Of a stretch of DNA of 64,000 nucleotides, positions 13,346-47,879 are shown one piece after another. The translations under genes and the position numbers were made by a program. Within the stretch, counting starts at the first letter, position 1, and every line of letters starts with the position of its first letter. The stretch is taken from assembly GCA_030248195.1 (NCBI GenBank), contig JASAND010018054.1:1-64000 (forward strand), written 5' to 3'. The notes beneath the pieces are model-generated. The model was given only the letters and a program-made list of their open reading frames with translations. It was not told the DNA's origin and made no database searches. Source of the DNA: Trissonchulus latispiculum (taxonomy: Eukaryota > Nematoda > Enoplea > Enoplida > Ironidae).

Positions 13346-13450
13346 CTGCATTTCTCCGTTCTTGCGCGGGGGGGGGGATTATGATTTTGAGTGGGGGGGG
13401 GCGCCCCCCAAAAATTTTTTTTTTTTTATTTTGTTGGGGGGGAAAAAAAT
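13346..13450. other. G-rich, T-rich insertion breaking pol of element A
   Basis: The plus strand holds runs of 9-10 G, a GGGGGCGCCCCCC palindrome and a run of 12-13 T. The insertion shifts the pol frame: the N-terminal part and the body are in different frames, whereas element D is continuous across the homologous place. It may be a small insertion or replication slippage. A sequencing or assembly error in the homopolymers is also possible. Confidence 0.6.
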
Positions 13451-13985: not shown

Positions 13986-15335
13986 TTACTGCGGAGGAGC
14001 ACCCCCGGAATTTATCGTGCTCCCCGCTTGCTGAAAACTCTGCAAGGCTTGCAATAACTGGGAAGTTGGATCCATTTCGGGCTGAACCGGGGTCAAGTAA
14101 TTTATCACCGGATTTTGCTGGTTACGCCCTTGTCCTTGCGACTGAAACAGGCGTCCAGTAGATGGATCCACAAAAATACTCGCACCCTGAATGTTGCGGT
14201 TATTGGAGGAGTTGCCTCCCCTGCGGCCTCCTCGACCGCGATATGATCCTCGATTTCCTCTATTCCAACCACCTCCCGAATTTTGGTTGGAATAACCGTC
14301 ATAATTTTGCCGGTTATTATAATTTCCCCTGTTTCCACCAAAATTTCTTCGATTTGGGTTACCTCTACCCCTTGAACCTGAATTATTTTGCCGATTTAAG
14401 GCACACTGAGGGGAAATGTGGCCTGGATTGCCACACGTATAACACGTTCGTTGGTCCATTTGATCTTTTTCTGGTGTTTTCTCCGTTTTTTCCGTAGATG
14501 CTTGAACAGCATTTACAGCACCAGAAGCAGCACTAGTTGAGGGTTGGCACTTTTCTGAGTCCGCTGACTCGCCTTTCGTGGCTTCCAAAACTAAATCCCT
14601 CTGAGCATTACGTATTTTCACTTTCTTGATTTCATCCTCCAAAGTTTTCAACCTCAGATCTAAATCACTAGAACTTTCAAGAGATTCTGACGAAACTGCA
14701 CAAACTTTGGCTTTAGCCTTCCCCCGTTTTTCCTTCTTGGGGATTTTTTCCGGCTTTTCTGATTTGTCCGATTCAGCTGAATCAGAATCGCACTCCTCTT
14801 CAAGTCTCGACAGTTGAGTAACGATTTTTCTCAATTTAGCCATCGTATGGCCCCAATTTTCCAAATCAGATAAAAGCGAAATTCCAACTGTCTTTAAATT
14901 AGGTTTTAGGCCTTTTCGAAGTTGCTCGAAAATGTTCACAGCTCTCATATCGTCGCTCTCATTTGGAAAGGCCTTTTTTGCCAACATTTCCAATTCGGAC
15001 ACAAAATCTTGCACATTCTCGTCCTTTTTCTGGGTACGTACATAAAATTTACGAGAATGTTCAACGGCTGTCCGTTGAACCGGCTCATAGAGCGTTTTTA
15101 AGAGCTGTTTTAGCTCTCTGTACGTACTTGGCATTCCCAAGGAGGAAAGCCTATGAATAACTTTTTCGCCCAATTTGGCTAACAAAATCGAGTAATATTT
15201 ATCGTTTTCGACGTCGTTGGCCTTAGCAATGGCCTCGAAACTGACGATCCACTCGTCAGGGGTCAGTGTCGTATCCCGACCGTTATAGTTGCTCAAACCC
15301 TTAAAAAGGGTAATCAAATTTTTGAGCTCCGCCAT
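13986..15335 (-). CDS. gag: Gypsy A Gag with CCHC zinc knuckle
   Basis: A structural capsid/nucleocapsid protein of about 450 residues from the first ATG at 15335. Order: retrotransposon gag-type helical domain (LYEPVQRTAVEHSR, then FPNESDDMRAVNIFEQLRKG), a coiled/charged K-E-rich linker, and a CCHC zinc knuckle CYTCGNPGHISPQC near residue 298. A G/R/N-rich basic RNA-binding stretch and a Q-rich tail follow. The frame is open upstream of the ATG to about 15490, and a WDNIF motif there is shared with D, so translation may start upstream at a non-AUG codon. It ends at a TAA whose context CCGCAGTAAATTCGTC is nearly the same as in D. Confidence 0.9.
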   Translation of the reverse strand: MAELKNLITLFKGLSNYNGRDTTLTPDEWIVSFEAIAKANDVENDKYYSILLAKLGEKVIHRLSSLGMPSTYRELKQLLKTLYEPVQRTAVEHSRKFYVRTQKKDENVQDFVSELEMLAKKAFPNESDDMRAVNIFEQLRKGLKPNLKTVGISLLSDLENWGHTMAKLRKIVTQLSRLEEECDSDSAESDKSEKPEKIPKKEKRGKAKAKVCAVSSESLESSSDLDLRLKTLEDEIKKVKIRNAQRDLVLEATKGESADSEKCQPSTSAASGAVNAVQASTEKTEKTPEKDQMDQRTCYTCGNPGHISPQCALNRQNNSGSRGRGNPNRRNFGGNRGNYNNRQNYDGYSNQNSGGGWNRGNRGSYRGRGGRRGGNSSNNRNIQGASIFVDPSTGRLFQSQGQGRNQQNPVINYLTPVQPEMDPTSQLLQALQSFQQAGSTINSGGAPPQ

Positions 15336-15490
15336 TTTCTTTTCTTTTTCGGCACGTAATCGAGCTCGGAGCCTTGTCTCCAGATTTCGGTTTATTTCCG
15401 CCAAAGAGCCCAAAGTTTCAAAAATATTATCCCAATTGACCCAATTTTCACTAGGATTTTCTCCACTCAACGGGTCACTAATTTTGGGAA

Positions 15491-16933
15491 AAATCTAACT
15501 CAAATATACTCAAATTGTTGACAAAAAACTACCGTTTGACCTCCAATCTACACAAAAAAACACGAAAAACAACAAAATTGGCCAAAAAGTTATATACGTA
15601 TATATCAAATTGAGGGAATAAGGGGGGGCGACGCGATTTTTAGCATTTTCTGGTTAGTGTAACCAATGAGACGAAACGGATTTTTTGTTTTCGACTCAAA
15701 AAAGCAGAAAAGAGTGTTCAAAAATGCCAAAAACGACACTAGGATCCCGAAAAAAAATTGAAAATGGGGGTTTTAGGGGGGGTCAAAAATCCCTAAATAC
15801 TCTAAAACACGGAAAACGGACAGAATCTAGCCTAAAATTGCAACTTGTGTTTAGGCTCGCCGTTATTTTAGGCTGAAATAGTTATTTTTACCGGTTTTTC
15901 GATTTTGGGGTCGATTGGGGGGGGGGGGGTCAAAAATTCGTCAAAATTTGGCCTACAAATTCAAATTTTGGCCTTAAAACGCCCTAAATCACGTTTTGAG
16001 CGTGAAAATGACGCTCCAAAAATTTATTAGGCCCAAAATAGCAAGAAATTAACCGATATTGACCACAAAAATGCTTGGGAGGGGGTCAAAAAATTTCACA
16101 AAAGTTCGACAAAATTTTCAAAATTTTGTCTTTAAATTGCCTAAAATAGGTTCCTGAGCGTGAAAACAACGCCCAAAAAATTTATTTCAAGCCGAATGAG
16201 CAAGATTTTGGCCTAAATCGACCCAAAAATGACTTAGGGGGGTCGAAAAAACATTTTTTCAAAATTTGACCAAAAATTCGAAATTTTGCCTCTAGTGCGC
16301 TTCTGTTGCTTTTCTAGTGCTAAATATTCCCGAAAACAGGAATTTTTACCACCAGGGTGTGGAAAAAACGTCCACAAATTTTCCTAAACTAAGAATTTTG
16401 AAAATTTTATAACCGTCTTGGGATGGTTTGGGGGGAGGAGGGGGGATCGCTCAAATCTACCCAAACTTTATTTAATTATAGGTTATTGGGCTGCCCCAAT
16501 AACCCTATGCAGTTTCCAGCTGAATTCCCCGCCTCAAACTACCTGGGAGGGGGAGTGGGGGAGGGTGTCCAACACCCCCTAGCTACCAATCCTAAATTTT
16601 CCATTTTTCAAAAATTCAAAGTTGCACCCTCAAAAAATCGAAAAAATTAAAAGTCGTTTTTATGAAAAACTAAGTATCATAAAAGAATCTCCAGATCAAG
16701 AGCTTTTCAGAAATATAAAGCTTTTTGTTCAACTCGCAAAAATGAAAAAGTTATTTATATATGAAAATTGTCAAAATAAACAAATTTTGAAATTTGACAA
16801 ACCGGACAGTGGTCCTGTCACGGTCGCCAAATATCAATCCCCGGTTTACTGTCCGGTTACTAAACCGGAAATTGGTTGGCGAATCTGATGCAGGTTCTCA
16901 CGGGTGCAACTCGCTGATAAAATAGACCCCTAA
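15491..16933 (-). promoter_or_regulatory. Structured 5' leader of element A
   Basis: About 1.4 kb of untranslated leader between the 5' LTR-like repeat and gag. It holds a series of short perfect hairpins: GGTTA/TAACC (15652-15664), AGCCTAAA/TTTAGGCT (15829-15857), GAGCGT/ACGCTC (15998-16016), GAGCGT/ACGCCC (16156-16174), TGTGGA/TCCACA (about 16359-16376), GGTTATTGGG/CCCAATAACC (16481-16504) and AACCGGACAGT/ACTGTCCGGTT (16800-16858). Several sit in loosely repeated ~160-bp modules with G-runs. Structured leaders of retroelements serve RNA dimerisation, packaging or translation, but the role here is inferred. No primer-binding site was identified with confidence. Confidence 0.55.
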
Positions 16934-17321
16934 TCTAAACCTATCCTAATCAAACATGAGGCAATGTTGGCGGACAAAGTACTTTATTGTACAACTTACG
17001 TTTTAATCAGCGTGAATGATGAACACAGCAAATACAGAATATAAGGCCTAATGGCCGACCACTCGGTACAAGAGATAATCACACACTGACTAGATCTGCG
17101 GTTAAGCTATCTTTTATATAAGCTAAATGGTTGCTGTTTGAGATGATTAGGTTGATCGGTTGTTACAAAGTTTGTAGAATCGCAGACCGTAATTGCTAGT
17201 TTTTCACAATGATAATTATTCTTCTTACAGGACAGATCCTTTTTCAGGGTTGGTTCACCGTAACGAAGACGGAATTTCCCCGAAACAATTGTCACTCGGA
17301 TCCGAAGAGTAAGTTGTCAAA
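16934..17321 (-). repeat. LTR-like direct repeat, right copy (5' LTR of A)
   Basis: 388 bp, about 98% identical to 4792-5178 (a handful of substitutions and one 1-bp indel). On the minus strand it shows a TATA-like box, an initiator-like TCAGT and AATAAA in LTR order. It lies upstream of gag of element A. Its outer edge at 17321 directly meets element B sequence about 150 bp beyond the ORF3 stop. Confidence 0.7.
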
Positions 17322-17469: not shown

Positions 17470-20400
17470 TCAGAGCTCCCGAAACAGAATGGCTCGGGGA
17501 TCCGGTTTGGAGGTGGGCATACCCTCCAAGGGATTCCAAATGATGACAGCCATCGCTGGGAAGAAGACGTCATCCTTCCGGTCTGGAGGTTCCGTTCCGG
17601 CAATGAAGGCACCCCGCCGGTTAACAGTCATGTCCACAGTGTGGTTCAAGAGGCGATCCGGAGGGCCTTCACGGTGGAAAGGAGGAGCAGCCAGGCCATC
17701 CTTATAGCGTTTAGCCTGAATACGGATGCGCCGCCGCACCAGATCCTGGAATTCGACGAAGTCGTGGAGAGCCAAGGGTTCTCTCGTAAACCTGTTCTTG
17801 AAGAGGTCGTCAGGGCCGGCCTGTGTGAACCACAGAAAAAGCTCCGTGTAGATGGCCCCCTGAAGATTCTGACCAGTCCATTTCTCCAAGTTGTAGACCC
17901 AAGCTCGCTCACCAGATGGGGGTAGATCTCCCTTGCTAGTGACGGAGCTGCCGTCGGGCATGTCGGGCATGTTGAATCCTACGCCAAAGTAGGGGTCCTC
18001 ATGCGCCTTGCCATAAAGGCACCCAATGGACTGAACCAGTTCCTCTTGCATCTCTTCTGAATAGTAGAAGGAATGGAAGATGATGAGACGCTGTGAAAGC
18101 AGATCACATCCCATACGCCAATTGATAAGGCGTTCTGCCGGGTACGCTTCCATGCGAGCATTGACCAAATCCTTGATCTCGTAACCAGACGACTCGGAAT
18201 TCTGGAAGATTTCCACTTCGACAGATTTGGCGCGGCAAAAGTAAGTTTTGCGAGCCTGATACAGATGTTCCTTCGTCTTCAGTCTCCGCTGACGTAGCTG
18301 GTCGACGTCCAGGTTCAAGCCGTCAGGATGAGGAAACATAGTGTCGAAGGGATACGGACTCCGCAGGTAAAGGTACAGGAATTTGTACGGCTCCACGTCT
18401 TGGATGCCTTCGATTCCTGGGCGGTAGTACCGTTTCATCGCTGCGTTGATGGCAGTCAGTCTGGTTCGGTACCGTTTGGCATGGTACGGAATCGCATGTA
18501 AAGCGTCCTTCCACAGACTGTCCTTCATGTGAGGATAGTTGTCTAATTCCGGGACGAAGTCCGCAAGCACCTTGATTTCGGCCCATTTCTTCGACAGGTC
18601 TGATTTCATATGATGGTATTCAGACCAGGTGGCACCATCTTCTCGCTGGTAAGGCTCAAACCGAATCTGGCAGTCGTGAATCAAACGTCGTTTGGTATCT
18701 CGACGGGTGCGGAAATCGCACGAGATATGACCGGCTGCGCTCGGATTGATCTTACGCATTTCGCGGATGGCGGAATCAATCGGATTATCCGGCAGAGCGG
18801 TGGCTGCCACAGAATTTCGTTCCATCCAAGCCAACACGATGTGCCGCAAAATGCTGATGACTGGATGAATTTCTTCACGACCCGGAGGAGAAGGAATGTG
18901 GACCGGAATCCAGCAGCGATCCTGATTCCTCACGTAGACGAACGGAGCTCTTGGCCACTGAGTCACGTTCATCTGTCGGATTTCTTCGTCCGTCGGAATT
19001 TCCTGTACGAATTTCTCGAATACAGGTGTCTCCTGAGTTCTACCAGGCACGGTAGGCAGACCAACCTGCTGGTAGTGATAATGATAGTCAACGAGCAACA
19101 CCCGGAAAGGTGGAAAATTGTCACGAGTGAAGCCAGAATGGAATTCAGGAGGAATTAAGCGCGTGTAGGTCGTCTGACCCGAAGCTCGAGAGCGCTTGCA
19201 CGCTGGAATCGAATACCCGCCGCGAGAGCCCGCTGAACGGATATGTTCGGACGTCGCTAGGCGTGGCTGACCATAACCAGCTGCTTCGTTGAACTGCTGT
19301 GCCTCAATAGATGGTGGTTGATGAGGCGGAAAACGACGGTTCCATTCTGCTGTGACAGCGGCTGCGGCTTCCGTAATGGCCAGCAGCTCCTCCGCTGTTG
19401 CTCCTTGTGAGGTACGTGGTCGGTCCTCACCTGATGTCTTGGCTAAACCAGGAGAGCTCGGTTGCCAAGGCCAGGGCAACGTACTAGACGAAGTCGTCAC
19501 CGGAGTAGACGTTGTAACCAATTGCGAATTGGTCACAATAATAGTCAGTTGCTGATCAGTTCGAGGCGTCGTCGGAGCCGTAGTGGTCACAGGCTGGGGT
19601 TCCACCGTGATGGTAACTGCAGTTGGTGGTGGACGAGGTTCTACTGACGCAGGCCGAGAAGGCTGTGCCTGATCAGGTCGTCGAGCTCGTCCACGGCTTC
19701 GTGCAGAGGCCTTGGATGAGGTAGATCCAGCTGATGATGCCGAGCTAGCTTTACTATGCTGACCACGGCCACGAGGAGCCTGAGGAAGCTCAGCACGAGG
19801 TAGTTGACGGCCAGCAACAGGAGGTTCCGTGGAGACAACCATAGGCGAACTGCCTGACGAAATGGCAGAGGTAGGTGTAGCCACAGAGGTAGATACCAGT
19901 CCCGAAAGTGCCGTGGAGGCAGGGCTCACCAGGTCCACATCTACGCCGGCAGATGTAAGAGGTCCCGAAATGGATGGGGTCACCATAGTTACATCCGACG
20001 TCAAAGGTGGCACCGTGGATGGACCAGGCAAAGCAAAGTCCTGCACAGCCAACTGTTGCGTTGGAGACTGCACTGATGATGGAACCGCGGAGGCACCCTG
20101 CGGTCGGGGCGGACCACCGTATAGGGTCATCACCTGAAGGGGGTCCAATCCCTGTGCTTCCATGTCCAAGATGACTTCTTCAACGACAGCAATTTGCTCT
20201 GGCAAAAGTTGTCGTTCACCAGACACACGGCTGAAGTTCGTGTCCCCAGGTTGTAAGGGGTTGACAGAGTTGACATAAGGCAACACCCTATACTCAGCCA
20301 TACCGTCAGTAGGGTTCCGCCAGATCAGAGTGATTTCAGGCCACGCCGGAGGTTGATGGCCAGGACCCACCCGAATTTCCCTGTAGACTTCCCAATAGAC

Positions 20401-23400
20401 GGGGAGGTCTGCTGAGACCAGCTGGAAAAACCGCGAAGGGTCGAATCCAGGGTGGCTAGGATCCATAGGGGGACCAACCACGTAAATTCGGTGACGAGGC
20501 TGATTAGTGCCTGCTACCGATTGGCGGATGATTGTCATAATCCGGCGAATAGCCTGTTTCGTCAGGACCTGGATGTACGGAGGAATTTGGATTTGCTCCG
20601 CAACATCATGTTGGTAGACTCCGGTTGCTGGATCGTAAGAGTCCACGTATTGGTTTTGGACCAACACGTCTTCGGGTTCAAATCGATTCAAATGTGGTAC
20701 GTAACCAGAGGGACCCGTGATTCCTTGAGGTCGCAGACGAGCGTCCCAGATGAATCGCAAGGCGTCGTGATGAGACCGAGTTGGAATATTCGGATACCAC
20801 TGATTAAGTTGGTCCTCAGTATCTGGATAACGCGGCTGCGTGGGCGCCGGTGGCTGAACAACTGGCTGAGCCTGGGTCGTCGGACCCGACATTCTAACCA
20901 GAGGTGGAGCCACAGGGGCCGGAGCTGGCGGCGCCTGGGTGACGTACCCAGAGGGGCCAGGCATAGCCGGTCCAGAAGGCTGATATGGAGGCGTCCGGAT
21001 AGGCATAGACGCCACCGATTTGGCCAGCTGCTGCAAGCCAGGAGCTAATTGTTCGAACAAATTAGATGGTATAGAGTCCGCCGCGCTACGCACATATCGT
21101 TCTTCGGTTTCTGTCGATTCCCCGCTGTCAGATTCGTCAGAATCGTCTACCGTGACAGTGGGAGCCGCCGAAGCTGAAGGCATAGGATGTGGCAGCGTCG
21201 AAGATCCAGGTTCGACTAGAGTCACTGGAGCAGCAGTGGTCACTGCTGGAGCTTGGATTCCTGGGCCAGCAGATGGAATAACCGGTCCAGACTGCGGTTT
21301 TCCCAAAGGTGTGGACGTCATTGCTGTCGATGGACTGGGTTGAGCCGATGAATAGGTTATTGGCGGATTTCGCCGGTCGCGTGGGTCACCCGTTCCTGGC
21401 ACGTAGTGTGTAAGCGGAGGGGTTTCCCTAGGAGCTGGTGGAAGTGACAACTCCTGTTGAAGCCGACGAAGTGTGACAATCAGAGGCTCTTCCGCTTCCA
21501 TAGCCGACATATTGATGGAGGCAGTGACGTCGACGCTCGAAGATAGAGAGGGGGAACGCTGTAATTGTTCCTCCTGATGGGCATATTCCCAGGCCTCGTC
21601 CTCGCTCATGTTCCCAGGTGTTCGATTTGGGTCGGAGGGGTGGACCTTTCCCGTAACCAATGAGTACAGATTAAAGTCCAAGCCATCGCAACGGCGGCGC
21701 AACAACGGTAGCGCCAAGCCCAGATAGCTTTGCAGGAGGGACATCAGAGGTACCCATAGGATTTCCCGGTAAGGGGACGCCCGGTTTCCACCCAAATGAG
21801 CAGGAACCAATAAAGACCAGGCGAATTGTCCAATATAGTCCGAGATCCGAGGACCCTGTTGCGTAAGATGCGTCCGCATCGTGCGTTGCAACATGGCCTG
21901 ATCGTCGGTAGGCACTCCCGTCAGGGCTGTACAGTCCCCAGCCTGAACAAGAGGGCCATGTCCCATTCGCGCATCGGTGTTTGCCATGAATAAAGTCCGA
22001 TTGTCCGGCCCAAAGGTATAAAGGACACCACCCAGGTAGATAGCTTGGGTCCATTCCCGGGCAGATAAACCATTGGCCAGAGAAATTAAGATGGCATAAA
22101 TAGTCAGTACGTCCGCTAAGGCGTACTGCCCTTCACGAACCGAGGGGAAAACTGACAGTCCTCGGAAATTAGCGTCACGCAAAAGTTTTGGTGACACCAG
22201 TCCAAAGCCCAGCGCCAGAGCATGCAACCCAAGGTGCTGCCCTGTCACAAAAGGACCAAGTGGCATACCAGAAATGTTCTCCCAGTAGAGGACAGGAAGG
22301 TCCGGATGTTCCCGACGTGTAGCTGCGCGGAAATTGATGGCGTGCCGCACAACTTCTCCCAATTCGACGAAGGAGTGTTCCAGCCCGGTGATTCCGCAGA
22401 ATCGGGCCAGTCGCAGAATGTCGTGGAGGCATCCGACCGTGACGAAATACACCGTTTCCGGCGGTTGCAGAAGCATCCGCAAACAGTGCAATACGGGATA
22501 ATAGTCAGTAGTCGAGGCCAAGATTTCGCCAACCAGAATTAGATAGACCGTAGGATTGTCCGAGGGGACAGGGCCGGCAATTTGGATGGTGGTGACCGTT
22601 GCCGCCGTGTCGTTCCCGAACTGGGGTCCAGAGCCGCCTTCAATGTCGAAAGCGACAATGCCGGTCTGGCGATACAAGGCATAAATGTCAGCGATTGATG
22701 TTAAAAGACCCATAAAATTGTTAATAACAGTTACCGCATTAAAATTGGCGGGCACACGGAGGGTATCAGCGGTTACCCGGTGATGTTCGTTGAGGACCTC
22801 CGTTTGCACCAGGCCTTCAGCCGCCGAAGCAAGCGCGCCTCTAGCCTGCTCGTCGAGGACGGGAGCTTGGTTGTTTCGGAGCCGCAAAAAGAAATGCTGC
22901 CGAAGTTGCTCCACAAGATGAAGAGCAGCGCTAGCTCTGGCTTGAAGGGTCGGATCGACGTTCCGAACCGCTTCTTCGGTGGGTGGCGTAAAGGATAGGT
23001 GTTGCGCCCGTTCTTCCGATGTTCGAGGTTCACTTCGGTCGCGAACCTCGACGAGAGGACGTCTGACAGGCAACTGATGTAAATGTCCCTCAGCAATAGA
23101 TGGAATTAAATTAAGCATATTGTCCATGCCGGCCGCCATGCGTTGTTCTGCCGCATCGGCCGTTGGTTCGACAGGGTCACCTGGTTCGTCAGAACCGGTC
23201 TTGACGCCAGCAGGTTCGCTGTCGCCCGCTACCATACCCGTCGCCGTACCTTCTTCGTCATCGGATGCCAGGTCAACGACAGGAATTGAATCCGAATGGC
23301 CCTGAGACGTAAGAGGGCCTGACGTCGTGACAGGTGGTTCTCCAGCAGCCGAGACGACTGGAGGTGAAGGCTGAGGAATCGGATCAAGTCCGGGTAGAGG

Positions 23401-24438
23401 CGAAGACGCTTTCTTCGACTTTTTCTGACGTTGTCGCTGACGTTTCGACGGTCGAGAACCCGATGGAGATGGCGCTTGAGGGGTCTCGTTCGCTGATACA
23501 GACTGACCAGCGGAGGTCAATCTGAGGTTGGCCTGACGAGCCGCCTCCCGTTGAGGACGACCAGACGTAAGGGCCGGGTCAGACTGAGGCGAGTTAAGCA
23601 ATTGCAAGCGCGTAACTGCCTCCTGACGCTTGGCCTGCAGAATGCGGATCTGCTGATTAATGTCCGAAATGTCCAGTTCGCATTGCTGTGATGGGTCGGT
23701 CACAGGAGCGTCAGACGTTCCCGTCGTCGCCTGAGCGCTAGGTTGAGGTGAGCCAGAAGGTGGAGAAAGGACCTTCTTGACTTTCTTTCCTGCGGTTGGC
23801 CGTTCCATAGTACTAGCCGAGCTACTAGCACCCGCGTCGGCCGCCGACCGTTTTGAACGTTGATCCATTCGTGAAGAGTCCGGGGTTCCGGAACCCGAGG
23901 GACCAGCCACCAGGGGTGACGGCTGGGCGCCAGGACCAGAAGGAAGGGCACCAGATGGACCAGGAACACGCTCACGATCCATCCTGTTCCGTTCCTCGGC
24001 CGTTAGCGTACTGCCGAGGGCCTCAGGAGCAGGTCTGGTCGGAGGTGTTGGAAGGTCACCCGGCAAAGGCGAACTGCCGTGTGGGGGAGGGGTTGGCTGT
24101 GGCCCTGGATAGGCGACCACCGCCCCGCTGGCCTCCACCGCAGATCTTCGAGTGACGATGGTGCTGAATGACGGACCTTCCGAAGGTAAAGTTTCGCCAA
24201 AACCAGGCCGCCGAATAGCCGAACTGGCTGAAGTAGACGGCGGTAGCACGTAAGTGCCGGTTAGAGCAGGAGGATAAACTGGCCTCATGCCGAATGGAGT
24301 AGGTCCCGTGAGTTCCTCGTCGACAGTTACGAGGCCACCAACGGACGGGAAAGTGGCCAAGTTATTAGGGTCCACGGGGCCCTGATTGGAGCCATGAGAA
24401 CCAGGTTGGTCTTCTCGTCGTCCCTGATTTGCCGCCAT
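17470..24438 (-). CDS. ORF3 of element B: giant protein with DEDDy exonuclease-like domain
   Basis: About 2,322 residues from the ATG at 24438. The frame is open to 24579, but this ATG follows a TTTCCAG acceptor directly and has a good context. Residues 1-540 and about 900-1500 are P/S/T/G-rich and look disordered. Residues about 590-790 carry the three exonuclease motifs of the RNase D/WRN-type DEDDy family: Exo I AFDIEGG (D598, E600), Exo II VGCLHDILRLARF (D673) and Exo III YALADVLTIY (Y772, D776). The expected activity is 3'-5' exonuclease on RNA or single-stranded DNA. The C-terminal ~600 residues are dense, rich in aromatic and charged residues, and unrecognised. No signal peptide or obvious transmembrane segment was seen, so it is not an env. 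DEDDy-type ORF3s are known in bdelloid rotifer LTR elements. The domain call is strong by motif; function in the element is inferred. Confidence 0.8.
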   Translation of the reverse strand: MAANQGRREDQPGSHGSNQGPVDPNNLATFPSVGGLVTVDEELTGPTPFGMRPVYPPALTGTYVLPPSTSASSAIRRPGFGETLPSEGPSFSTIVTRRSAVEASGAVVAYPGPQPTPPPHGSSPLPGDLPTPPTRPAPEALGSTLTAEERNRMDRERVPGPSGALPSGPGAQPSPLVAGPSGSGTPDSSRMDQRSKRSAADAGASSSASTMERPTAGKKVKKVLSPPSGSPQPSAQATTGTSDAPVTDPSQQCELDISDINQQIRILQAKRQEAVTRLQLLNSPQSDPALTSGRPQREAARQANLRLTSAGQSVSANETPQAPSPSGSRPSKRQRQRQKKSKKASSPLPGLDPIPQPSPPVVSAAGEPPVTTSGPLTSQGHSDSIPVVDLASDDEEGTATGMVAGDSEPAGVKTGSDEPGDPVEPTADAAEQRMAAGMDNMLNLIPSIAEGHLHQLPVRRPLVEVRDRSEPRTSEERAQHLSFTPPTEEAVRNVDPTLQARASAALHLVEQLRQHFFLRLRNNQAPVLDEQARGALASAAEGLVQTEVLNEHHRVTADTLRVPANFNAVTVINNFMGLLTSIADIYALYRQTGIVAFDIEGGSGPQFGNDTAATVTTIQIAGPVPSDNPTVYLILVGEILASTTDYYPVLHCLRMLLQPPETVYFVTVGCLHDILRLARFCGITGLEHSFVELGEVVRHAINFRAATRREHPDLPVLYWENISGMPLGPFVTGQHLGLHALALGFGLVSPKLLRDANFRGLSVFPSVREGQYALADVLTIYAILISLANGLSAREWTQAIYLGGVLYTFGPDNRTLFMANTDARMGHGPLVQAGDCTALTGVPTDDQAMLQRTMRTHLTQQGPRISDYIGQFAWSLLVPAHLGGNRASPYREILWVPLMSLLQSYLGLALPLLRRRCDGLDFNLYSLVTGKVHPSDPNRTPGNMSEDEAWEYAHQEEQLQRSPSLSSSVDVTASINMSAMEAEEPLIVTLRRLQQELSLPPAPRETPPLTHYVPGTGDPRDRRNPPITYSSAQPSPSTAMTSTPLGKPQSGPVIPSAGPGIQAPAVTTAAPVTLVEPGSSTLPHPMPSASAAPTVTVDDSDESDSGESTETEERYVRSAADSIPSNLFEQLAPGLQQLAKSVASMPIRTPPYQPSGPAMPGPSGYVTQAPPAPAPVAPPLVRMSGPTTQAQPVVQPPAPTQPRYPDTEDQLNQWYPNIPTRSHHDALRFIWDARLRPQGITGPSGYVPHLNRFEPEDVLVQNQYVDSYDPATGVYQHDVAEQIQIPPYIQVLTKQAIRRIMTIIRQSVAGTNQPRHRIYVVGPPMDPSHPGFDPSRFFQLVSADLPVYWEVYREIRVGPGHQPPAWPEITLIWRNPTDGMAEYRVLPYVNSVNPLQPGDTNFSRVSGERQLLPEQIAVVEEVILDMEAQGLDPLQVMTLYGGPPRPQGASAVPSSVQSPTQQLAVQDFALPGPSTVPPLTSDVTMVTPSISGPLTSAGVDVDLVSPASTALSGLVSTSVATPTSAISSGSSPMVVSTEPPVAGRQLPRAELPQAPRGRGQHSKASSASSAGSTSSKASARSRGRARRPDQAQPSRPASVEPRPPPTAVTITVEPQPVTTTAPTTPRTDQQLTIIVTNSQLVTTSTPVTTSSSTLPWPWQPSSPGLAKTSGEDRPRTSQGATAEELLAITEAAAAVTAEWNRRFPPHQPPSIEAQQFNEAAGYGQPRLATSEHIRSAGSRGGYSIPACKRSRASGQTTYTRLIPPEFHSGFTRDNFPPFRVLLVDYHYHYQQVGLPTVPGRTQETPVFEKFVQEIPTDEEIRQMNVTQWPRAPFVYVRNQDRCWIPVHIPSPPGREEIHPVISILRHIVLAWMERNSVAATALPDNPIDSAIREMRKINPSAAGHISCDFRTRRDTKRRLIHDCQIRFEPYQREDGATWSEYHHMKSDLSKKWAEIKVLADFVPELDNYPHMKDSLWKDALHAIPYHAKRYRTRLTAINAAMKRYYRPGIEGIQDVEPYKFLYLYLRSPYPFDTMFPHPDGLNLDVDQLRQRRLKTKEHLYQARKTYFCRAKSVEVEIFQNSESSGYEIKDLVNARMEAYPAERLINWRMGCDLLSQRLIIFHSFYYSEEMQEELVQSIGCLYGKAHEDPYFGVGFNMPDMPDGSSVTSKGDLPPSGERAWVYNLEKWTGQNLQGAIYTELFLWFTQAGPDDLFKNRFTREPLALHDFVEFQDLVRRRIRIQAKRYKDGLAAPPFHREGPPDRLLNHTVDMTVNRRGAFIAGTEPPDRKDDVFFPAMAVIIWNPLEGMPTSKPDPRAILFREL

Positions 24439-24460: not shown

Positions 24461-24579
24461 GACAGCAAAAATGAGAAGAACCAGGAGCGTTGAAATTTGA
24501 TCCAGAAATAGAATTCGTAATGAATATGGCGTGAAGCCGGTCCAGATCTGAAGAAATCAAGAAAAGGTGTAGGATACAA

Positions 24580-25174: not shown

Positions 25175-28100
25175 CTATTTTAGGCGAACTGCCTGGTTCC
25201 TGACCGGACGGTCAAGATACGGCTTCAGCTTCTCGATATGAATGATTTCTTCACCGGACTGAGCTCCAACCTTCTGGATCTTGAAGTTGACTTCCGACAT
25301 TTTCTCCAGTATCCTGTACGGACCGTCGTATTTTGGCCGTAACTTCTGACACATGCCGGAAGGAGTACCTCCTGTGATTTTTCTCATTACCAGCATGCCT
25401 GGCTCGTAGTGGATCGGGCGGACCTTTTTGTCGTAGGCCAGCCGATTTTTCTGCGTTGAAGCTTCCAGGCCCCGGCGGGCTGCAGTCCACGCCTTATGAA
25501 GGACGGCAAGGTGGGACCGTTTGTACGAGTCATAGTTCTGTACGACCTCATCGTTACGGCCGTCAAAGAACTGGTCCAGTGGAAGACGCAGATCGTGACC
25601 GGTCATAAGAAAATGGGGAGAATCCCCTACAGAGCTATGTATGGACGCCCGGTACGTACAAAGGGCCCATGGCAAATAATCGTCCCAATTGGTCTGGTAA
25701 ACATCCACATACCGGCTAAAAGTCGTTCGGAGTGTCTTATTCAGTCTCTCGACCACGCCGTTCGCTTGCGGATGATAGGATGTTGTTCGTTGCAGCTTCG
25801 ATCCACTAAGCTCGCACAGAGCGGTAAACAGTTTGGACAAGAAGTTAGTCCCGCGGTCAGACAGCAGATTCGAGGGCACGCCCCACCTGGCAACGAATCC
25901 GTTGAAATAGTAGTAAGCGACCGTTTCTGCTGTTTCATTTGGCATTGCAAACGCTTCTGCGTACCGGGTGAAGTGATCCACGATTACCAGAATACACGTA
26001 TTTCCCCGGATAGTCGGGTTTTTTGTGCAATGCATCACGTCCAAGCTGACCAGATCGAGGGGACGGTTGACGCGAACATCATTTTGCAATCCGGCCTGAG
26101 GACGCAACGGGCCCGGATTGAATTTGGCGCACACCTTGCATGTGCTGATGTAGTCGGCGAGATCTTGCGCCATCGTCGGCCAAAAATAGCGCGAAGCTAA
26201 ACTCGCATAGGCGGCTCTATGGCTGCGGTGACCGCCAACCATATAACCAGAGTGAACTTCTTCCAGTATCATTTGGCGATAGCGTTGAGGGACCGCAATG
26301 ACCTTGAAGGCATTGCCCCGACGACGGCCCCTCTCATCAAGATGCCATCGGAATAATAGACCATCCTGGATGAAGTAAATGGGCCGAAGCTTTTTCAGGT
26401 GCACCGAAACCTGCGGATCCTTCGGTTGAACCTTGCGTTCCATGAGATCAAACAGAGGACTGAAATCAGGATCCATCCGTTGCTCACGCTTCCAGGTAGC
26501 GACTGTCACCTTATGGTCTAAGGCGCATATGGCCGGCGGGTACATGACGTCAGTCAGGTCCATCTCGAGCTCGGTTGGCCGCTCCGATGAGGGCAGACGC
26601 GACAGCGCATCGGCAACGACGTTTTCTCGACCAGGTCGGTAGTCGATGATAAAGTCGAACTCCTGTAATCGTAGAGCGAACCGTGCCTGACGGCCAGCAC
26701 CCAAAATTGACCTGTTACTCAACAAGTCCTTCACAGCCATATGATCCGTCCGGATTATGAAAAGTCCAGCTGAGACGTAATGCCGGAACTTTTGGCATGC
26801 CCATACCACTCCAGCTCCCTCAAGATCAGTGGCAGAGTAATTCTTCTCGTAAGTAGTGAGCGTACGACTGGCATAGGCCACAGGTCGAGTCACCACAGTT
26901 CGTGCCATACCCGGGTTCTTGGCACAGCGAGGCACTGACACAGGCTGTTCAAGGACAGCCCCCAGGCCGTGATGGCTAGCGTCCACTGAAATGATGAAGA
27001 CTTTATCAAAGTCCGGATAAGCCAACACAGGGGCCTGAGTAAGGATCCGTTTGAGAGCATCAAATGCCTGCTGACGATCAGAATTCCACTGAAAGACAGC
27101 GTCTTTCTTGAGAAGCTCTATGAGGGGGGCAGCTATCTTCGTATAATTCGGCACGAATCTTCTGTAGTAGCCGCTCATACCCAGGAATGATTTTACGCCC
27201 TTCACATCTACAGGAGGCGGCAGGTTCGCCACAGCTGCCACCTTATCCGGATCAACCGAGATACCGTCCTGAGATATGATATGCCCCAGGAAGGGGACTT
27301 TTTGTCGAAGAAAACTGCATTTCTTCAGTTTGATTCGCAGCCCGTTGTCGCGAAGCTTCTGGAAGACAATCCGGAGCATATCCAGGTGCGAGGACACGTC
27401 CGGCGACGGGATAAGAACATCGTCGATGTAGACAGGTAAGCCAGTGAGGACCTTCTCCATGATCCGCTGAAACGTAGCTGGGGCGTTGCACAAACCGAAC
27501 GGCATAACATTCATGTGAAAAAGTCCCATGTGGGAGACAAACGCTGTCTTTTCCCTATCTTGGGGACATACCTCTACCTGCCAATAGCCGGCAGCCAGAT
27601 CGATTGATGAAAAGATAGAGCTGCCCTTCAGTTGGTCCATAATCTCGTCGATTTTTGGCAGAGGATAATTGTCCTTCTTCGTAGCTTTGTTAAGCCGTCG
27701 GTAATCAATCACCAGCCGCGTGGACCCATCCTTCTTGCCGACGAGGATGCAAGGTGAGGACCACGGACTCGTAGATGGTACGCAAACGCCTTCGTCCAGC
27801 ATCGCCTTGATGTGCTTCTCGACTTCGGCCTTCTGTGGCGGATTCATACGATATGGCCGACTTTTGATGGGTCGTTCCTTTCCCGTATCAATGATATGGT
27901 GTTCGACGTCTGTCCGGCCTGGATTACCAGGGCGGGCAATAATATCGTAGAATTCGAGAAGCAGATCTTTCATTTGCCGTTTGAGCTCGTCTGAGCCGGT
28001 CATCTTGGCAAAATCGACGTTTGCTTCAATATCCCGTATCTTTTCGTCGAGAGTGGGGTCAGGTGCCCGGCGTAATAGGTCAGGAGAAAAATGTTCTCCC

Positions 28101-30367
28101 TCGACGTCCTCCAGACCTGATTCACGAACAACGTCGTCTGTGCCGTACTGGCTGCGAATATGTGTTTTCCCAGTGGTGCCCGGATCTCTCTGTTGGCGAA
28201 CAGTCTTGGACACGGGCTGAGTCGTCACGCTGCGCACTTCTTGTGGTGGGTGGGCCCGTACTTGCAGATCGTTTGACGAGCTAGGATGCTCCGTGCTAGC
28301 TCCCTGCTTTCCTAGGGCCGACCGACCGAGCGCTTGGGTCGCTGGGTGACTGGACCAATCAAGAAGGTGCTGGTAAATCGAGGGGAGGTGCCCTCCACCC
28401 TCAATAACGCAAGCCATGTCCGGAATCTCGTCGACCTCTGAGACGGGGATTGCTCGGCCCAATGAGGCGCCTTTGGGCAAGTCGATTATGCGTTCGCCCC
28501 CATTGTATACCCGAATATACGAAACCTTTGGCGTTATGTCCAGAACGCCGGCCTGAGGGTAAATCGCACGACTCTCAATCACCTCCGCATCAGGTTCGTA
28601 GTAGGCGAGATAGGACGAATCCAAATATGAGCCGTTAGCGCGAACAGCTCGGACAGGGACAAAGCGTTCCTGGTTCGGGAAAATCCGTATGCCTTCCCGG
28701 ACACATAAGGTTACCGCAGACGTGACCTCAATGCCGTAGGCTGAGGCAATAGCTTGCAACTCAGTCCGATTTAGGAACAAAACACGGTCCCCAGTCGCTG
28801 CCGACGTCTCTATGTATCCTCCGCGAGGGTGTACCGTGAAGTCCAAGGAAGACAGGAAGTCAAACCCAAGGAGGACCTCCTGTTGTAGAGTCGGGACCAC
28901 GTAGAATGAATGTGTTGCCTGAAGATTCTTCAATCGCAAGGTCAATTGGCACTGACCGAGAATAGTCAATTGGTTACCTTCACCGGCTGCCGAGATAGAG
29001 GTGAGGGCGGAAACAGTCATTGGAGTTTGGACATGGTCCTTTATCTTGGCGTAGAATGATTTCGAAATCAGGGATACAGTGGCACCTGTGTCCACTAGCG
29101 CCAATGCCGCCACCGGACCGATGTGAACCAGTACGTAGGGAGCATGGAATAGAGCGATTTTCGTGGATTTTTCGACGTAGAAAACGCTTTCGCCAGCAAT
29201 GACCTGCTGAACGGAATTACGTATGCCGTCAGACAAGGCCAAAAGTTCGTCGTTTACCACGATTTCATCTCCCGTACGTACCACCGTCCCTTGGGTATTA
29301 TCGTCCCGTGGAGTTGAAGGTTCGGTTCGGACCGGGGGGTCAAGGTCCAGGTTACCGGGAATGTCCAAGTCGGCCAAATCGGAAGCCGTAAAACCCTTAG
29401 GATGTTGTAGAAAAGTCTCTAACACATCTTCAAATTCGTCCATACGTTGGGCCAAGTGTTCGGAGGCTATGTGGGCCGCCGCCTTGAGCCGCTTGTTGGA
29501 ATTTTCAAGCTTTTGGGCCTCCTTTCGGAATTCGCTGTGAGAGTCAACCAAATTGTCCCAATACGCCAATAACATATCGGCGTCCAGGTCACCGAGGTCA
29601 AGGGCTGAAGGAATTTCCAGATCCGAATTGGACGGCTGGGTGACCGGGGTAGGTGACGGCGGAGTCACCCTAACCTCGGGTTTTTGCCATTGACCATCAG
29701 GAGACCGGCGCAGAGTCAGTTTAGGAAGTTCAGAATTGCCAGACCTTCGGACGGAGGCCTTAGGCGTGGACGTAGGAGACTTCGGTTGAGGACTGGTGCT
29801 GGGACGGTCCCCGGGGCTCGTGTTACGAGCCCGGGCTTTCTTCGTCGACGCATCAGTAGAAGAGTTCGCATCCGAAAGAGTCGCCCGACTCGCTTCTTGA
29901 AGAGAAAGATGGCTCTCCATAGAAGAGACCTGAACACCGACGGATAACGACAGGCTCGACTTCTTCTGCACATTGGACGTACTGTCCGGGTAATCGCTAG
30001 AAGTTGACGCCGTATCCGATTGATCAATCTTCTTGCCATTGTTCCGCTTCTTCTTAGGACCTCGTTTCTCAGAACGACTTGGGCTAGGGGTCTGATCCCT
30101 GTCATGATCAGACAGATCCCAGCCGTTCTGGCAAACCAAGTGATGGCACTCATGACGTGGGAAACCCATGATACAAGCCCACTCATCTGGGTAATTCCCG
30201 ACCTGCGAAAGAAAATCATCAGTACCTTGTCCATCCTGATCTGAGAGCATGAATACCTGTCCACTCCCTAAAATCGGCAGGGGATCTTCGCAAAGGACAG
30301 ACGGCGAAGAAAGAGGTGGGCAAGTGGGTAGGTGGATCGTCGGATCCGTTCCACTAGGGATGACCAT
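25175..30367 (-). CDS. pol: Gypsy B Pol polyprotein (protease, RT, RNase H, integrase)
   Basis: 1,730 residues from a true ATG at 30367. An S/P/R-rich N-terminal extension of about 400 residues holds a Cys/His cluster (ECHHLVC). The protease motif DTGATVS is near residue 425 and the RT box YIDD near 980. RNase H follows (SVDASHHG near 1125, then RTDHMAVKDLL). The integrase zinc region is near 1382 (HSGYMVGGH, then CKVCAKF). The integrase triad lies near 1445 (SLDVMH), 1505 (SDRGTNF) and 1540 (NGVVERLN), and a GPY/F module (KYDGPYRI) near 1682. All catalytic residues are present. It is -1 relative to gag. The last codons contain the 11-base motif found elsewhere in the element. Confidence 0.93.
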   Translation of the reverse strand: MVIPSGTDPTIHLPTCPPLSSPSVLCEDPLPILGSGQVFMLSDQDGQGTDDFLSQVGNYPDEWACIMGFPRHECHHLVCQNGWDLSDHDRDQTPSPSRSEKRGPKKKRNNGKKIDQSDTASTSSDYPDSTSNVQKKSSLSLSVGVQVSSMESHLSLQEASRATLSDANSSTDASTKKARARNTSPGDRPSTSPQPKSPTSTPKASVRRSGNSELPKLTLRRSPDGQWQKPEVRVTPPSPTPVTQPSNSDLEIPSALDLGDLDADMLLAYWDNLVDSHSEFRKEAQKLENSNKRLKAAAHIASEHLAQRMDEFEDVLETFLQHPKGFTASDLADLDIPGNLDLDPPVRTEPSTPRDDNTQGTVVRTGDEIVVNDELLALSDGIRNSVQQVIAGESVFYVEKSTKIALFHAPYVLVHIGPVAALALVDTGATVSLISKSFYAKIKDHVQTPMTVSALTSISAAGEGNQLTILGQCQLTLRLKNLQATHSFYVVPTLQQEVLLGFDFLSSLDFTVHPRGGYIETSAATGDRVLFLNRTELQAIASAYGIEVTSAVTLCVREGIRIFPNQERFVPVRAVRANGSYLDSSYLAYYEPDAEVIESRAIYPQAGVLDITPKVSYIRVYNGGERIIDLPKGASLGRAIPVSEVDEIPDMACVIEGGGHLPSIYQHLLDWSSHPATQALGRSALGKQGASTEHPSSSNDLQVRAHPPQEVRSVTTQPVSKTVRQQRDPGTTGKTHIRSQYGTDDVVRESGLEDVEGEHFSPDLLRRAPDPTLDEKIRDIEANVDFAKMTGSDELKRQMKDLLLEFYDIIARPGNPGRTDVEHHIIDTGKERPIKSRPYRMNPPQKAEVEKHIKAMLDEGVCVPSTSPWSSPCILVGKKDGSTRLVIDYRRLNKATKKDNYPLPKIDEIMDQLKGSSIFSSIDLAAGYWQVEVCPQDREKTAFVSHMGLFHMNVMPFGLCNAPATFQRIMEKVLTGLPVYIDDVLIPSPDVSSHLDMLRIVFQKLRDNGLRIKLKKCSFLRQKVPFLGHIISQDGISVDPDKVAAVANLPPPVDVKGVKSFLGMSGYYRRFVPNYTKIAAPLIELLKKDAVFQWNSDRQQAFDALKRILTQAPVLAYPDFDKVFIISVDASHHGLGAVLEQPVSVPRCAKNPGMARTVVTRPVAYASRTLTTYEKNYSATDLEGAGVVWACQKFRHYVSAGLFIIRTDHMAVKDLLSNRSILGAGRQARFALRLQEFDFIIDYRPGRENVVADALSRLPSSERPTELEMDLTDVMYPPAICALDHKVTVATWKREQRMDPDFSPLFDLMERKVQPKDPQVSVHLKKLRPIYFIQDGLLFRWHLDERGRRRGNAFKVIAVPQRYRQMILEEVHSGYMVGGHRSHRAAYASLASRYFWPTMAQDLADYISTCKVCAKFNPGPLRPQAGLQNDVRVNRPLDLVSLDVMHCTKNPTIRGNTCILVIVDHFTRYAEAFAMPNETAETVAYYYFNGFVARWGVPSNLLSDRGTNFLSKLFTALCELSGSKLQRTTSYHPQANGVVERLNKTLRTTFSRYVDVYQTNWDDYLPWALCTYRASIHSSVGDSPHFLMTGHDLRLPLDQFFDGRNDEVVQNYDSYKRSHLAVLHKAWTAARRGLEASTQKNRLAYDKKVRPIHYEPGMLVMRKITGGTPSGMCQKLRPKYDGPYRILEKMSEVNFKIQKVGAQSGEEIIHIEKLKPYLDRPVRNQAVRLK

Positions 30368-30414
30368 TTGAACAACAGGAGAGTGCGAGGCATTTTGGGG
30401 GCCCCGCTCCCCTG

Positions 30415-32916
30415 TTACTCGTTTCCCTGGTTCTGGCTGGAACTATCGTTTTGATCACCCTTTCCACCTTGCCCTCCAGAACGGTTGCCCTTACCGCGGT
30501 ACTGCTTTTTGAAGCCACCTCCGCGACCAGAGTTAGACTGCTGTGACTTCTGCCTATTGTCAGATGAGGAATTCGGGTTCCCCGTTGACGAAGGCTCCTG
30601 GAAAACCAGGGTGCCAAATCGAGGGTTGCGGAACATAGATCCACGACGAGGATTGTTTCCACAAACTCGTACTGAGCGGATATAGTGTGGACATCGCAAC
30701 CAGTGATGTCCATCAGTTCCACAATAGAGGCACGCAGAAAAACCCTGTTGATCATTTCGATTTTTCATCGCGGCACCAGCATTACCTCGTGACTGCTGAT
30801 CTATGAGCATGCAAAGATCTTCTTCGTCGAGGCCTTCCATGCTTGGATCATCCAGAATAGCACAGGCAGACGCCCCTTCTGGCCCGGAAGGGACAGTCAG
30901 TCCGGTTTTCTGGATTACCAGGTTCTGGAGGTTCTGCATTTGACGTTGCAGATCTCGGATATATGAAGGATACGTATCCACATTCGAAGTGGACTGATCA
31001 GATCCCTTCGAAATCGCAGCTACGGCTTCTAGCTGTGATTGCGGGTCGCCTTCCTCGACCATCTGTAAAATACGAACCGCACGCGTAATGATGTCATTCG
31101 GGTTGTTATAGTCCCAATAACGAGCACCTGCGAACGAACTAGCGACTTTTGAACGTAAAGACGCTTTGAGGCCACGCGAAGCGCGTTCGACCACTTTCAG
31201 TTCCCTGGATTTGGGATCTTCGTTAGGAAAACCCTTGCAAGCAAGAGTACGTAGTTCGTTGAGGTATTCGTGACTCGCCTCCGACGAGTGCTGCTGTCGT
31301 TCGAAGAACTCGCGAGCGTACTGGTCGGGAGTTTTCGCGATTGGTTCGTAGAACTGTTTCAAGACGGAAACCAGTTCTTCGTAGGAGTCGGTCGACTGGC
31401 CGGCCAAATCCTGTTTGATGGAATCGTCGAGTAAATACCATAAAAGCGGCTGTTTGAGTTCGTCTTTAGCACCGCTGGCTCGAAAAGTGCTTTCGAACAT
31501 GTCAAGCCAGATTGACAGAGCGAGCGTGCTTTTTCTGCCCTTAAAGGTATTTATCGATCTGAACCATTTCGTATAGTCGTTCAGCATACGTACCGTGTCA
31601 GGCGACATCTGAACCATATGGACGGCCGCGCCCAGTCGAACTGGCGCCAAATAAGATGGTGAGGCTGCTTGAGCCGGTAAAACTGACGTAGACACGTCCT
31701 CCTCTGACGATTCAGAAGAGAACCTGGGCCTGGTCAGCGGTTGACCAGAGCGTGATCCCATGTTTAGGGCCAACGGACGTCGCGACCGACGAGGTAACGG
31801 TGATGAAGTCCGTAATGGGGTAGAGGGCCATAACCGAGCTGGCTGTCGATTCGTGGACGCTCGGGTATTTACGGTCAGGATGAATTCCGCTCCCCGTTGC
31901 TGCTGTTGAATTCGGGACAGAGTTCCCTGGTACGCCGCCCGCGGCGTGTGTACAGTCAAATTAGTGTCATATATAGGGCCTATAGACACCGAGGGGGGAG
32001 CCCCCAGCGTCACGCCAAAATTAGAACCGTGACTCACCGGTGGGTCAAAACCAGTCCAGCGTCCTCCCAAAGCAGATGGATCCCAGGAGAGACGGTGCTC
32101 ATCCGTGGGAGACCAGGCATTTACAATAGTCCCGTTCGAAGAAAATGGCTCAATAGGTGGAAAAAGACCCAGGTTTAAACTCAGGTCAAAGTCCAGATTC
32201 AGGTCCGCCAGCCCCGCAGAAGAATGAGCTGGGCGAACCAGTTGGCCAGCCTGGGCAGCCAGGCCTCCAGTTTCTAAATTCCCGAGAGATAAAAATGTCC
32301 CTGAAGGGGAGACCGGATCAGAGGTGGGTAATTGTCCCAAAAGTGGATCCCGCAGGATGACCGTCCGGTCCCCAGGGCTCGTTAGGAGGCTGGGACCAGG
32401 GGTGTCGGTGGCGTCGGAGACCAAGTTCCAGATAAGGCTCGGCAGTGGACGATCGATAAACGAATGCTGAGGAGGAATTTGGCCTGACAGGCCGGTAGGC
32501 TGATTGTGCGTAAGATCGAGGTTCGCTAGGGAGTCAGCATCCGGCCCGTACTGGGTGGTTTCTTCCTCAGGATCGTCGAATACGTCACGAGCGCTGCCGA
32601 ATTCCGTCGACACGGATGACGAAGTGGACTCGCGACGGCCACTTTGACGATTAGGACCAACGAAATCAGGAAAGGGAGCCAGATTGGTCGAACTGACCGG
32701 TTTCGAGGGGAGCGAATCTGCCCTGGCACGAGCCAGCTGCGTCGTCAGACGCTTCGAAGGCTTGGCGTTGACAGAATTCGACTTCGGACGCATGGACGGA
32801 CAGCCCACGCATGATGAACCACAAGATTCCAGATCGCGTCTATTGGCAAGTGAGGCTTCTCGCACGGCTTTTTCGTGCAAGCGTCTGGACGTACGTCTCT
32901 CGGGTAGTTTCTCCAT
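30415..32916 (-). CDS. gag: Gypsy B Gag with CCHC zinc knuckle
   Basis: About 833 residues from the ATG at 32916; an upstream in-frame TTG is not preferred. The first ~430 residues are a long low-complexity extension rich in S, P, R and L. A gag-type helical domain lies near residues 440-620 (LVSVLKQFYEPIAKTPDQYA, then FPNEDPKSRELKVVERASRG). The zinc knuckle CLYCGTDGHHWLRC is near residue 731, followed by a G/S/N/Q-rich basic tail. It is expected to form the particle core and bind element RNA. Much longer than the gags of A and D because of its N-terminal extension. Confidence 0.88.
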   Translation of the reverse strand: MEKLPERRTSRRLHEKAVREASLANRRDLESCGSSCVGCPSMRPKSNSVNAKPSKRLTTQLARARADSLPSKPVSSTNLAPFPDFVGPNRQSGRRESTSSSVSTEFGSARDVFDDPEEETTQYGPDADSLANLDLTHNQPTGLSGQIPPQHSFIDRPLPSLIWNLVSDATDTPGPSLLTSPGDRTVILRDPLLGQLPTSDPVSPSGTFLSLGNLETGGLAAQAGQLVRPAHSSAGLADLNLDFDLSLNLGLFPPIEPFSSNGTIVNAWSPTDEHRLSWDPSALGGRWTGFDPPVSHGSNFGVTLGAPPSVSIGPIYDTNLTVHTPRAAYQGTLSRIQQQQRGAEFILTVNTRASTNRQPARLWPSTPLRTSSPLPRRSRRPLALNMGSRSGQPLTRPRFSSESSEEDVSTSVLPAQAASPSYLAPVRLGAAVHMVQMSPDTVRMLNDYTKWFRSINTFKGRKSTLALSIWLDMFESTFRASGAKDELKQPLLWYLLDDSIKQDLAGQSTDSYEELVSVLKQFYEPIAKTPDQYAREFFERQQHSSEASHEYLNELRTLACKGFPNEDPKSRELKVVERASRGLKASLRSKVASSFAGARYWDYNNPNDIITRAVRILQMVEEGDPQSQLEAVAAISKGSDQSTSNVDTYPSYIRDLQRQMQNLQNLVIQKTGLTVPSGPEGASACAILDDPSMEGLDEEDLCMLIDQQSRGNAGAAMKNRNDQQGFSACLYCGTDGHHWLRCPHYIRSVRVCGNNPRRGSMFRNPRFGTLVFQEPSSTGNPNSSSDNRQKSQQSNSGRGGGFKKQYRGKGNRSGGQGGKGDQNDSSSQNQGNE

Positions 32917-32922
32917 AGCCAA

Positions 32923-34108
32923 GAAAATTTCTTATCTGAAGTACTTGAATAAAAAGCACAGCACAAATATACGTACGTACCCCAAAGATAATGAAAATTA
33001 AAATGAGAATACAAAATTAAAGATAATTATTATTAAAATTAGACAGAAAAGGTAGGGACTTACGAGACCTAAAAGAGAAAATAAAATTAGACAAGTATAA
33101 TGATAAGAAAAATACAAAAAAGAAACCAGGTTATTAATTAAGATTGATAATAAATAAAATTATAAAATTATAATGAAAATTATACCTATCTCAGAAAAAT
33201 AATCCCGAAAAAGGTCCCTAAACTATCTCAAATAATGTACCCCAAAAAGAGAAAAACACACAAAAATTACACAGAGATCAGAATATGAGACAGGTACACA
33301 GACTAATGTACTGGACAAAATAAGACGAATGTATAACGTGGACAAAGGCAATGACCTGTACAAAACTGTGTAGACAGACTAATGTGATACAACTGTGTAA
33401 ATAAAATTGGGCGTACGTAGACAAAGGATATAGAAATTTTTGCGACCTATATACGTATACAGTAACAATGACCAAAGGACAAAGGTTACGTAGCCGTTTA
33501 GGCCGGTTACAGTACTAGACAGTACAAAAATATAAAAGGAGAAACAATACGTACGTATACAAACCCAGACAATTTACAAAAAATACCGGCGATTTCGCTC
33601 TCGTAAGCGTAGGAAAGCGCAAGTTAGGTACGTAGATTCGTAAAAACGGCGCAGACAATTGCAGGACGAACGTACTGTTCTTATTGTTGGGTGGTCGTGG
33701 CGATTCGGGTTTATGAGTGGCGTACTGCCGGCCCGAATTCCTGGATTTCGTAATACGTGCGTTTGAAATTTGGTACTGGCGTACTGCCGTTCGCAAGCGT
33801 CGATCCTGATATGACTCTTCTGACGAAGAAAAGTCGCGAAACAAACGTAGGTTCGAATCTCAGGAGCGGCGTACTGCCTTTCCAAATTCCAGTTGTCGCT
33901 TCAGATAAATTCCAGGTAATTACAGGTCGTATCGAAATCGTTGGGGAGCGGCGTACTGCCCTTTCTCCCGATCGCCAAACGAAACCGTAAATAGAAGAGA
34001 AAAAAAATTACGCCCAGAAGAACCAGATTACGTCCTGGCAGACTAATGTAGCGGAAGTGTTGTAATTATAGCGAATTACCAACGACTTGCTACTGGAACT
34101 GCGCCCAA
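32923..34108 (-). promoter_or_regulatory. 5' leader of element B with repeated GGCGTACTGCC motif
   Basis: About 1.2 kb between the candidate 5' LTR and gag. Four exact copies of GGCGTACTGCC (plus strand) lie at 33719-33729, 33778-33788, 33868-33878 and 33950-33960. In the sense RNA each reads GGCAGTACGCC, able to form a 3-bp GGC/GCC stem. Six more copies of the T/A-variable motif occur downstream in the element. The rest is AT-rich and non-coding. A candidate primer-binding site starting TGGGCGCAGTTCC lies at 34107 downward on the minus strand. Confidence 0.6.
33719..33960. repeat. Cluster of four 11-bp GGCGTACTGCC motifs
   Basis: Exact copies spaced 59, 90 and 82 bp apart. Others in element B: 17453 (7 bp after the ORF3 stop), 19844, 22120, 24068 (inside ORF3), 25131 and 25183 (flanking the pol stop). 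Variation occurs only at the fifth base (T or A). All are in the same orientation. None was noticed in elements A or D or in the host sequence. Confidence 0.85.
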
Positions 34109-47807: not shown

Positions 47808-47879
47808 TTGTCGGGTATAATATACTCTCATATGTGTTCAAAAAGAAGACAAATTTTTAAAGTTCAGGGTCAATCCAGT

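Follow-up and report, generated by a model that had tools for sequence, protein, structure and literature searches.

The window analysed, 64,000 nt at positions 1 to 64,000 of the forward strand of contig JASAND010018054.1 from the nematode Trissonchulus latispiculum (assembly GCA_030248195.1), contains on its minus strand a Ty3/Gypsy retrotransposon, designated element B, whose gag and pol are followed by a third open reading frame (ORF3). ORF3 is a multicopy gene in this genome, and its exonuclease part and C-terminal part co-occur in one frame. Sequence comparison and structure modelling predict that residues 560-815 form a 3'-5' exonuclease of the DEDDy class, akin to Nibbler, EXD2 and WRN, and that ORF3 carries a C-terminal NADAR-like domain, absent from an earlier preliminary description of ORF3. 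The explanation favoured here, to which we give about an even chance, is that ORF3 is a multicopy third gene behind a Gypsy gag-pol, its exonuclease and NADAR-like domain protecting the nucleic acid of the element. The principal features were as follows:

17470..24438, minus strand: ORF3, 2,322 residues from the ATG at 24438
21994..22761, minus strand: DEDDy exonuclease domain, ORF3 residues 560-815
17794..18426, minus strand: NADAR-like domain, C-terminal, ORF3 residues 2005-2215
25175..30442, minus strand: pol open frame of B, 1,755 residues, with aspartic protease, reverse transcriptase (YIDD), RNase H and integrase assigned by Pfam
30415..32931, minus strand: gag open frame of B, 838 residues stop to stop, with a single CCHC knuckle

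The genome assembly (733.8 Mb in 21,732 contigs, that of the window measuring 104,161 bases) was searched with two pieces of ORF3. The 583-residue C-terminal piece had 76 genomic matches (75 of 1,286 candidates scored), among which the full-length ones clustered at about 96-100%, 80-83%, 65-70%, 49-50% and 36-38% identity and partial ones lay between these clusters, while the exonuclease piece had 150 matches (148 of 623 candidates scored) with identity down to 42%. Of the 76 matches to the C-terminal piece, at least 52 were paired with a same-strand exonuclease match 3.0-4.8 kb upstream, measured start to start. Among the 76 there were 37 that lay in one frame open over 2,189-2,515 codons, limits chosen once the lengths were known, and all 37 were paired with an exonuclease match. 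These long open frames across divergent copies indicate that ORF3 is a gene family kept open at full length. The preliminary description had raised the question whether genomic copies of B consistently lack this ORF, and the finding that ORF3 is multicopy with many long open frames answers it in part.

The same description had recognised the exonuclease by five residues, all of which were found where it placed them, in the order D598 and E600 (Exo I, DxE), D673 (Exo II), Y772 and D776 (Exo III, Yx3D), each in an invariant column of a 13-row alignment; MAFFT misaligned Exo II when RNase D rows were included. The motif pattern alone proves little, and profile tests were taken as the deciding evidence. 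Two regular expressions, built from motif patterns and left unadjusted, profiles being used instead, both missed ORF3: of the 33 known DEDDy rows the loose one recovered 29 and the strict one 27, their hits among 20,000 block shuffles being 43 and 3 respectively, and the failure on ORF3 was traced to excess strictness after D673. By hhalign the exonuclease scored 31.5, a value reached by none of 900 shuffles. Against the 33-row RNase D/NrnC profile ORF3 scored 5.7 bits, from Exo III alone, with none of 3,000 shuffles as high; hhalign comparisons with this set and with the NADAR sets were weak. The AlphaFold2 model of the region had an RNase H-like DEDD fold and not some other fold, a point on which the preliminary description had made its assignment depend, and together with the profile comparison and its shuffle controls it supports the DEDDy exonuclease-like domain. 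The closest solved structure was that of Nibbler, a Mut-7 relative, followed by Egalitarian 1.5 Z units behind, and structural alignments of the model to the listed cellular exonucleases showed 9-20% identity. No Mut7-C or helicase domain was detected in ORF3 by Pfam. A Pfam match of the exonuclease piece to SopE_N (E 0.11, 27 residues, below cut-off) was attributed to chance.

In the NADAR-like domain, E2057, K2064, W2107, D2148, G2189, N2191 and G2194 fell in invariant or near-invariant NADAR columns, the first two being the retained Glu and Lys of the EHxxQAxK block. The 211-aa piece matched Pfam NADAR with an E value of 3.2e-4, under the curated Pfam cut-off, and its AlphaFold2 model had a YbiA-like fold. 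With a 21-row bacterial NADAR profile ORF3 scored 6.4 bits, a value reached by 2 of 3,000 shuffles, and with a narrow YbiA profile (113 rows) its score lay under the best shuffles. Two NADAR regular expressions matched ORF3 and none of 20,000 shuffles, with sensitivities of 3/21 and 8/21 on diverse NADARs; the second also matched 96 of 120 database hits. They are weak evidence, since they were composed after the match had been seen.

Between these domains, one further region was delimited:

19999..20841, minus strand: middle ORF3 region, residues ~1200-1480, between stretches judged by eye to be of low complexity

The piece covering residues 1147-1739 had no Pfam match in this region, which is a possible further domain. 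By eye, residues ~1740-1990 (18469-19221, minus strand) and ~1200-1480 looked folded, with no Pfam family matched, and the linkers between ORF3 domains appeared long and of low complexity.

As the preliminary description had it, a third ORF of about 2,322 residues follows gag and pol on one strand; both frame and order held when checked in the sequence. The stop-to-stop frame of ORF3 runs from 24579 to 17470, and upstream of it lies the Ty3/Gypsy gene set, gag and then protease, reverse transcriptase, RNase H and integrase, the order gag-pol-ORF3 being read at one locus. From gag through ORF3 the block exceeds 15 kb. Its G+C content was 0.50-0.56 (18-32 kb) versus 0.34-0.42 at 4-16 kb, which is mostly element A, and the codon usage of ORF3 correlated with that of B pol at r = 0.88 and with the pol genes of Gypsy elements A and C at r = 0.46 and 0.49. 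An 11-mer, GGCAGTWCGCC, was found at 12 sites with at most one mismatch, 10 of them exact, versus 0.82 expected for the whole window. All lay on the sense strand of B from 33960 to 17453 and nowhere else in the window, being located upstream of gag, near the end of pol, in all three frames of ORF3 and directly past its stop. Judged by eye, the 11-mer could pair as a GGC/GCC hairpin. The gag and pol frames overlap by 28 bases. Features bearing on expression and boundaries of B were:

30421..30427, minus strand: GGGAAAC, a heptamer of the slippery type in the gag/pol overlap, its phase fitting -1 frameshifting
24548..24565, minus strand: pyrimidine-rich stretch with TTTCTTCAG at its end, resembling a 3' splice acceptor and ending 109 bases before the ORF3 ATG
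4792-17321, minus strand: Gypsy element A, with 388-bp long terminal repeats (LTRs)
16934..17321, minus strand: LTR of element A, 388 bp, 98.2% identical to its partner at 4792-5178, ending 148 bases past the ORF3 stop
56563-63728, plus strand: Gypsy element C, the third in the window

Several results weigh against the favoured explanation. No LTR pair was detected for B in 15000-37500, in 1-40000 or by whole-window blastn, so that the membership of ORF3 in B rests on codon usage and GGCAGTWCGCC; the 3' end of B is missing here because the LTR of element A ends so close past the ORF3 stop. The single element-sized block of the preliminary description is supported by strand, codon usage and the shared 11-mer and lacks a detectable LTR pair. 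Numerous other genomic matches to both ORF3 pieces were truncated or contained stops. Neither Pfam nor NCBIfam, the latter searched with ORF3 and giving no match, has a model that reports an exonuclease in it. The EXD2-type row set was picked after its rows had visibly aligned with ORF3 and its choice is therefore post hoc; controls with shuffles and with other segments were run on it afterwards. On whole ORF3 the Pfam NADAR match had E 0.028 and 21.4 bits against a cut-off of 35.1, below threshold, and one of the hhalign runs had 1 shuffle in 500 that reached the ORF3 score for NADAR. Both predicted folds are partly imposed, because the AlphaFold2 alignments contained no sequences other than ORF3 and representatives of the families concerned. 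In this copy the late-strand Glu of YbiA-type NADARs, as given in the accessible part of PMC11125620, is replaced by G2143, so the domain may only bind; it might thus bind ADP-ribose without hydrolysis, and the residue counsels caution.

According to the favoured explanation, the ORF3 protein would be translated from a spliced mRNA in the manner of env, and a subgenomic mRNA made through the acceptor-like TTTCTTCAG is possible. The protein would act on element RNA or cDNA at single-stranded ends, where the exonuclease would trim 3' ends, while the NADAR domain would recognise or remove ADP-ribose set by host transferases on nucleic acid or element proteins. From sequence and model, binding or removal of ADP-ribose would be the likely activity of the NADAR-like domain. 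Both domains together would make a clean-up module by which the nucleic acid of the element stays fit for use although the cell is hostile; a predicted exonuclease joined with a NADAR would thus mean that the element likely cleans or protects its own RNA and DNA. Trimming, proofreading and counter-silencing, proposed in the preliminary description, are candidate functions of ORF3.

The exonuclease might instead be directed at the host, trimming or destroying the small RNAs or precursors that silence the element, with the NADAR-like domain guiding it to RNA. Nibbler as the closest structure agrees with this, as do the role of the MUT-7 family in germline small-RNA production and the mobilisation of transposons by a MUT-7 catalytic-site mutation (PMC11347159, in the text available); the narrow lead of Nibbler over Egalitarian and the lack of a Pfam-detected Mut7-C speak against it, and we regard it as unlikely. 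If both domains had turned into binding modules, ORF3 would serve as a large scaffold for nucleic acid that may package or localise the RNA of the element. Egalitarian, the second-best fold match, was solved with mRNA localisation elements including an I-factor signal, and the Gly at the late-strand acid position of the NADAR-like domain and the long linkers of apparent low complexity fit as well, but the DEDDy set is complete in this copy, and this explanation is quite unlikely.

It is improbable that the exonuclease serves reverse transcription, proofreading or trimming 3' ends while an element of such unusual length is copied: the length of the B block would suit such a role, and polymerase proofreading domains are among the DEDDy enzymes (accessible text of PMC5408684), but ORF3 is separate from pol and bears no sign of presence in the particle, and a separate protein would require a coupling of which none was seen. 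Highly improbable, finally, is that ORF3 is not part of B at all, being a separate repeated unit or a captured gene that adjoins gag-pol by chance. The missing LTR pair and the single locus at which the gene order was read would allow this; against it stand the strand, G+C rise and codon usage that ORF3 shares with B pol, and the 11-mer, confined to the sense strand, which recurs from upstream of gag to past the ORF3 stop and at no other place in the window.

Known systems supply parts of the arrangement. In the accessible part of PMC5408684, DEDDy exonuclease ORF3s occur in the bdelloid rotifer LTR retrotransposons Vesta and Juno, DEDDy and GDSL stand within one ORF3 in Adineta sp. 11, and a change of DEDD to DEED is noted. 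ORF3 of B resembles these in having the exonuclease in a third ORF downstream of pol and, as in Adineta, a second enzyme domain in the same ORF; it differs, as far as that text goes, in its NADAR-like rather than GDSL partner, its 2,322 residues and its complete DEDDy set. NADAR (YbiA-family) domains are placed by the available part of PMC12477816 in Ectocarpus Gypsy Pol and in ORF1 of an oyster Tx1 long interspersed nuclear element; B shares with the former a NADAR-type domain inside a Gypsy retrotransposon, but here it forms the C-terminal end of a separate frame, ORF3, joined with an exonuclease. In RNA-linked and viral contexts, comparable domains are found in C. elegans SNA-3, which has three NADAR domains and is required for SL1 trans-splicing (PMC9303266), and in nidoviruses whose hosts are nematodes, crustaceans and insects (PMC9503650); unlike SNA-3, for which the accessible text describes no exonuclease, ORF3 belongs to a retroelement. 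ADP-ribosyl guanine is a substrate that NADARs hydrolyse (PMC11543638). ORF3 shares DEDDy motifs and predicted fold with Nibbler/MUT-7, EXD2, WRN and RNase D, which are cellular enzymes, unlike ORF3, where Pfam detected neither Mut7-C nor helicase.

Protein database searches gave no relatives of the C-terminal region (3,873 candidates) or the exonuclease piece (7,999 candidates), no ORF3 relative was found in viral contigs, neither an exonuclease nor a NADAR was among the PDB entries that sequence searches with ORF3 or parts of it brought up at E values of 10 or less, and Rfam had no match at gathering score. No report of both domains in one element was found in the NADAR and DEDDy retrotransposon literature, most subscription journals lying outside coverage. 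DEDDy ORF3s and retrotransposon NADARs are each already known; their combination in one element appears to be new.

Elsewhere in the window, the pol proteins of A and C were ~65% identical to each other and ~44-45% identical to that of B, and no matching target-site duplication was seen by eye at the ends of element A. Broken non-LTR reverse transcriptase remnants at 36420-38316 (minus strand) were identified by eye, as was, by eye only, a CHK-type kinase-like fragment at 39762-40094 (minus strand). An inverted repeat at 38670-39308 had 203-base arms, 96% complementary and 233 bases apart, and a tandem satellite at 43493-47844 comprised ~172-bp units with G runs, 25 copies in one repeat family.

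The third ORF of an LTR element is usually assumed to be env. ORF3 holds about 2,300 codons open in many divergent copies, with two predicted nucleic-acid enzyme domains rather than env, and broadens the DEDDy ORF3 repertoire, as reported in the accessible literature, beyond bdelloid rotifers. A bolder proposal, doubtful at present, is that it marks an animal Gypsy lineage with a two-enzyme nucleic-acid defence module, in which a Nibbler-like exonuclease and a NADAR undoing or reading host ADP-ribosylation would be kept in one frame down to 36% identity. If true, this would be the first retroelement known to combine trimming of RNA with counter-ADP-ribosylation, paralleling the NADARs of nematode-infecting nidoviruses. 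If ADP-ribosylation of nucleic acid restrains animal retroelements, a retroelement NADAR would be a place to look, and the ORF3 family a natural test set.
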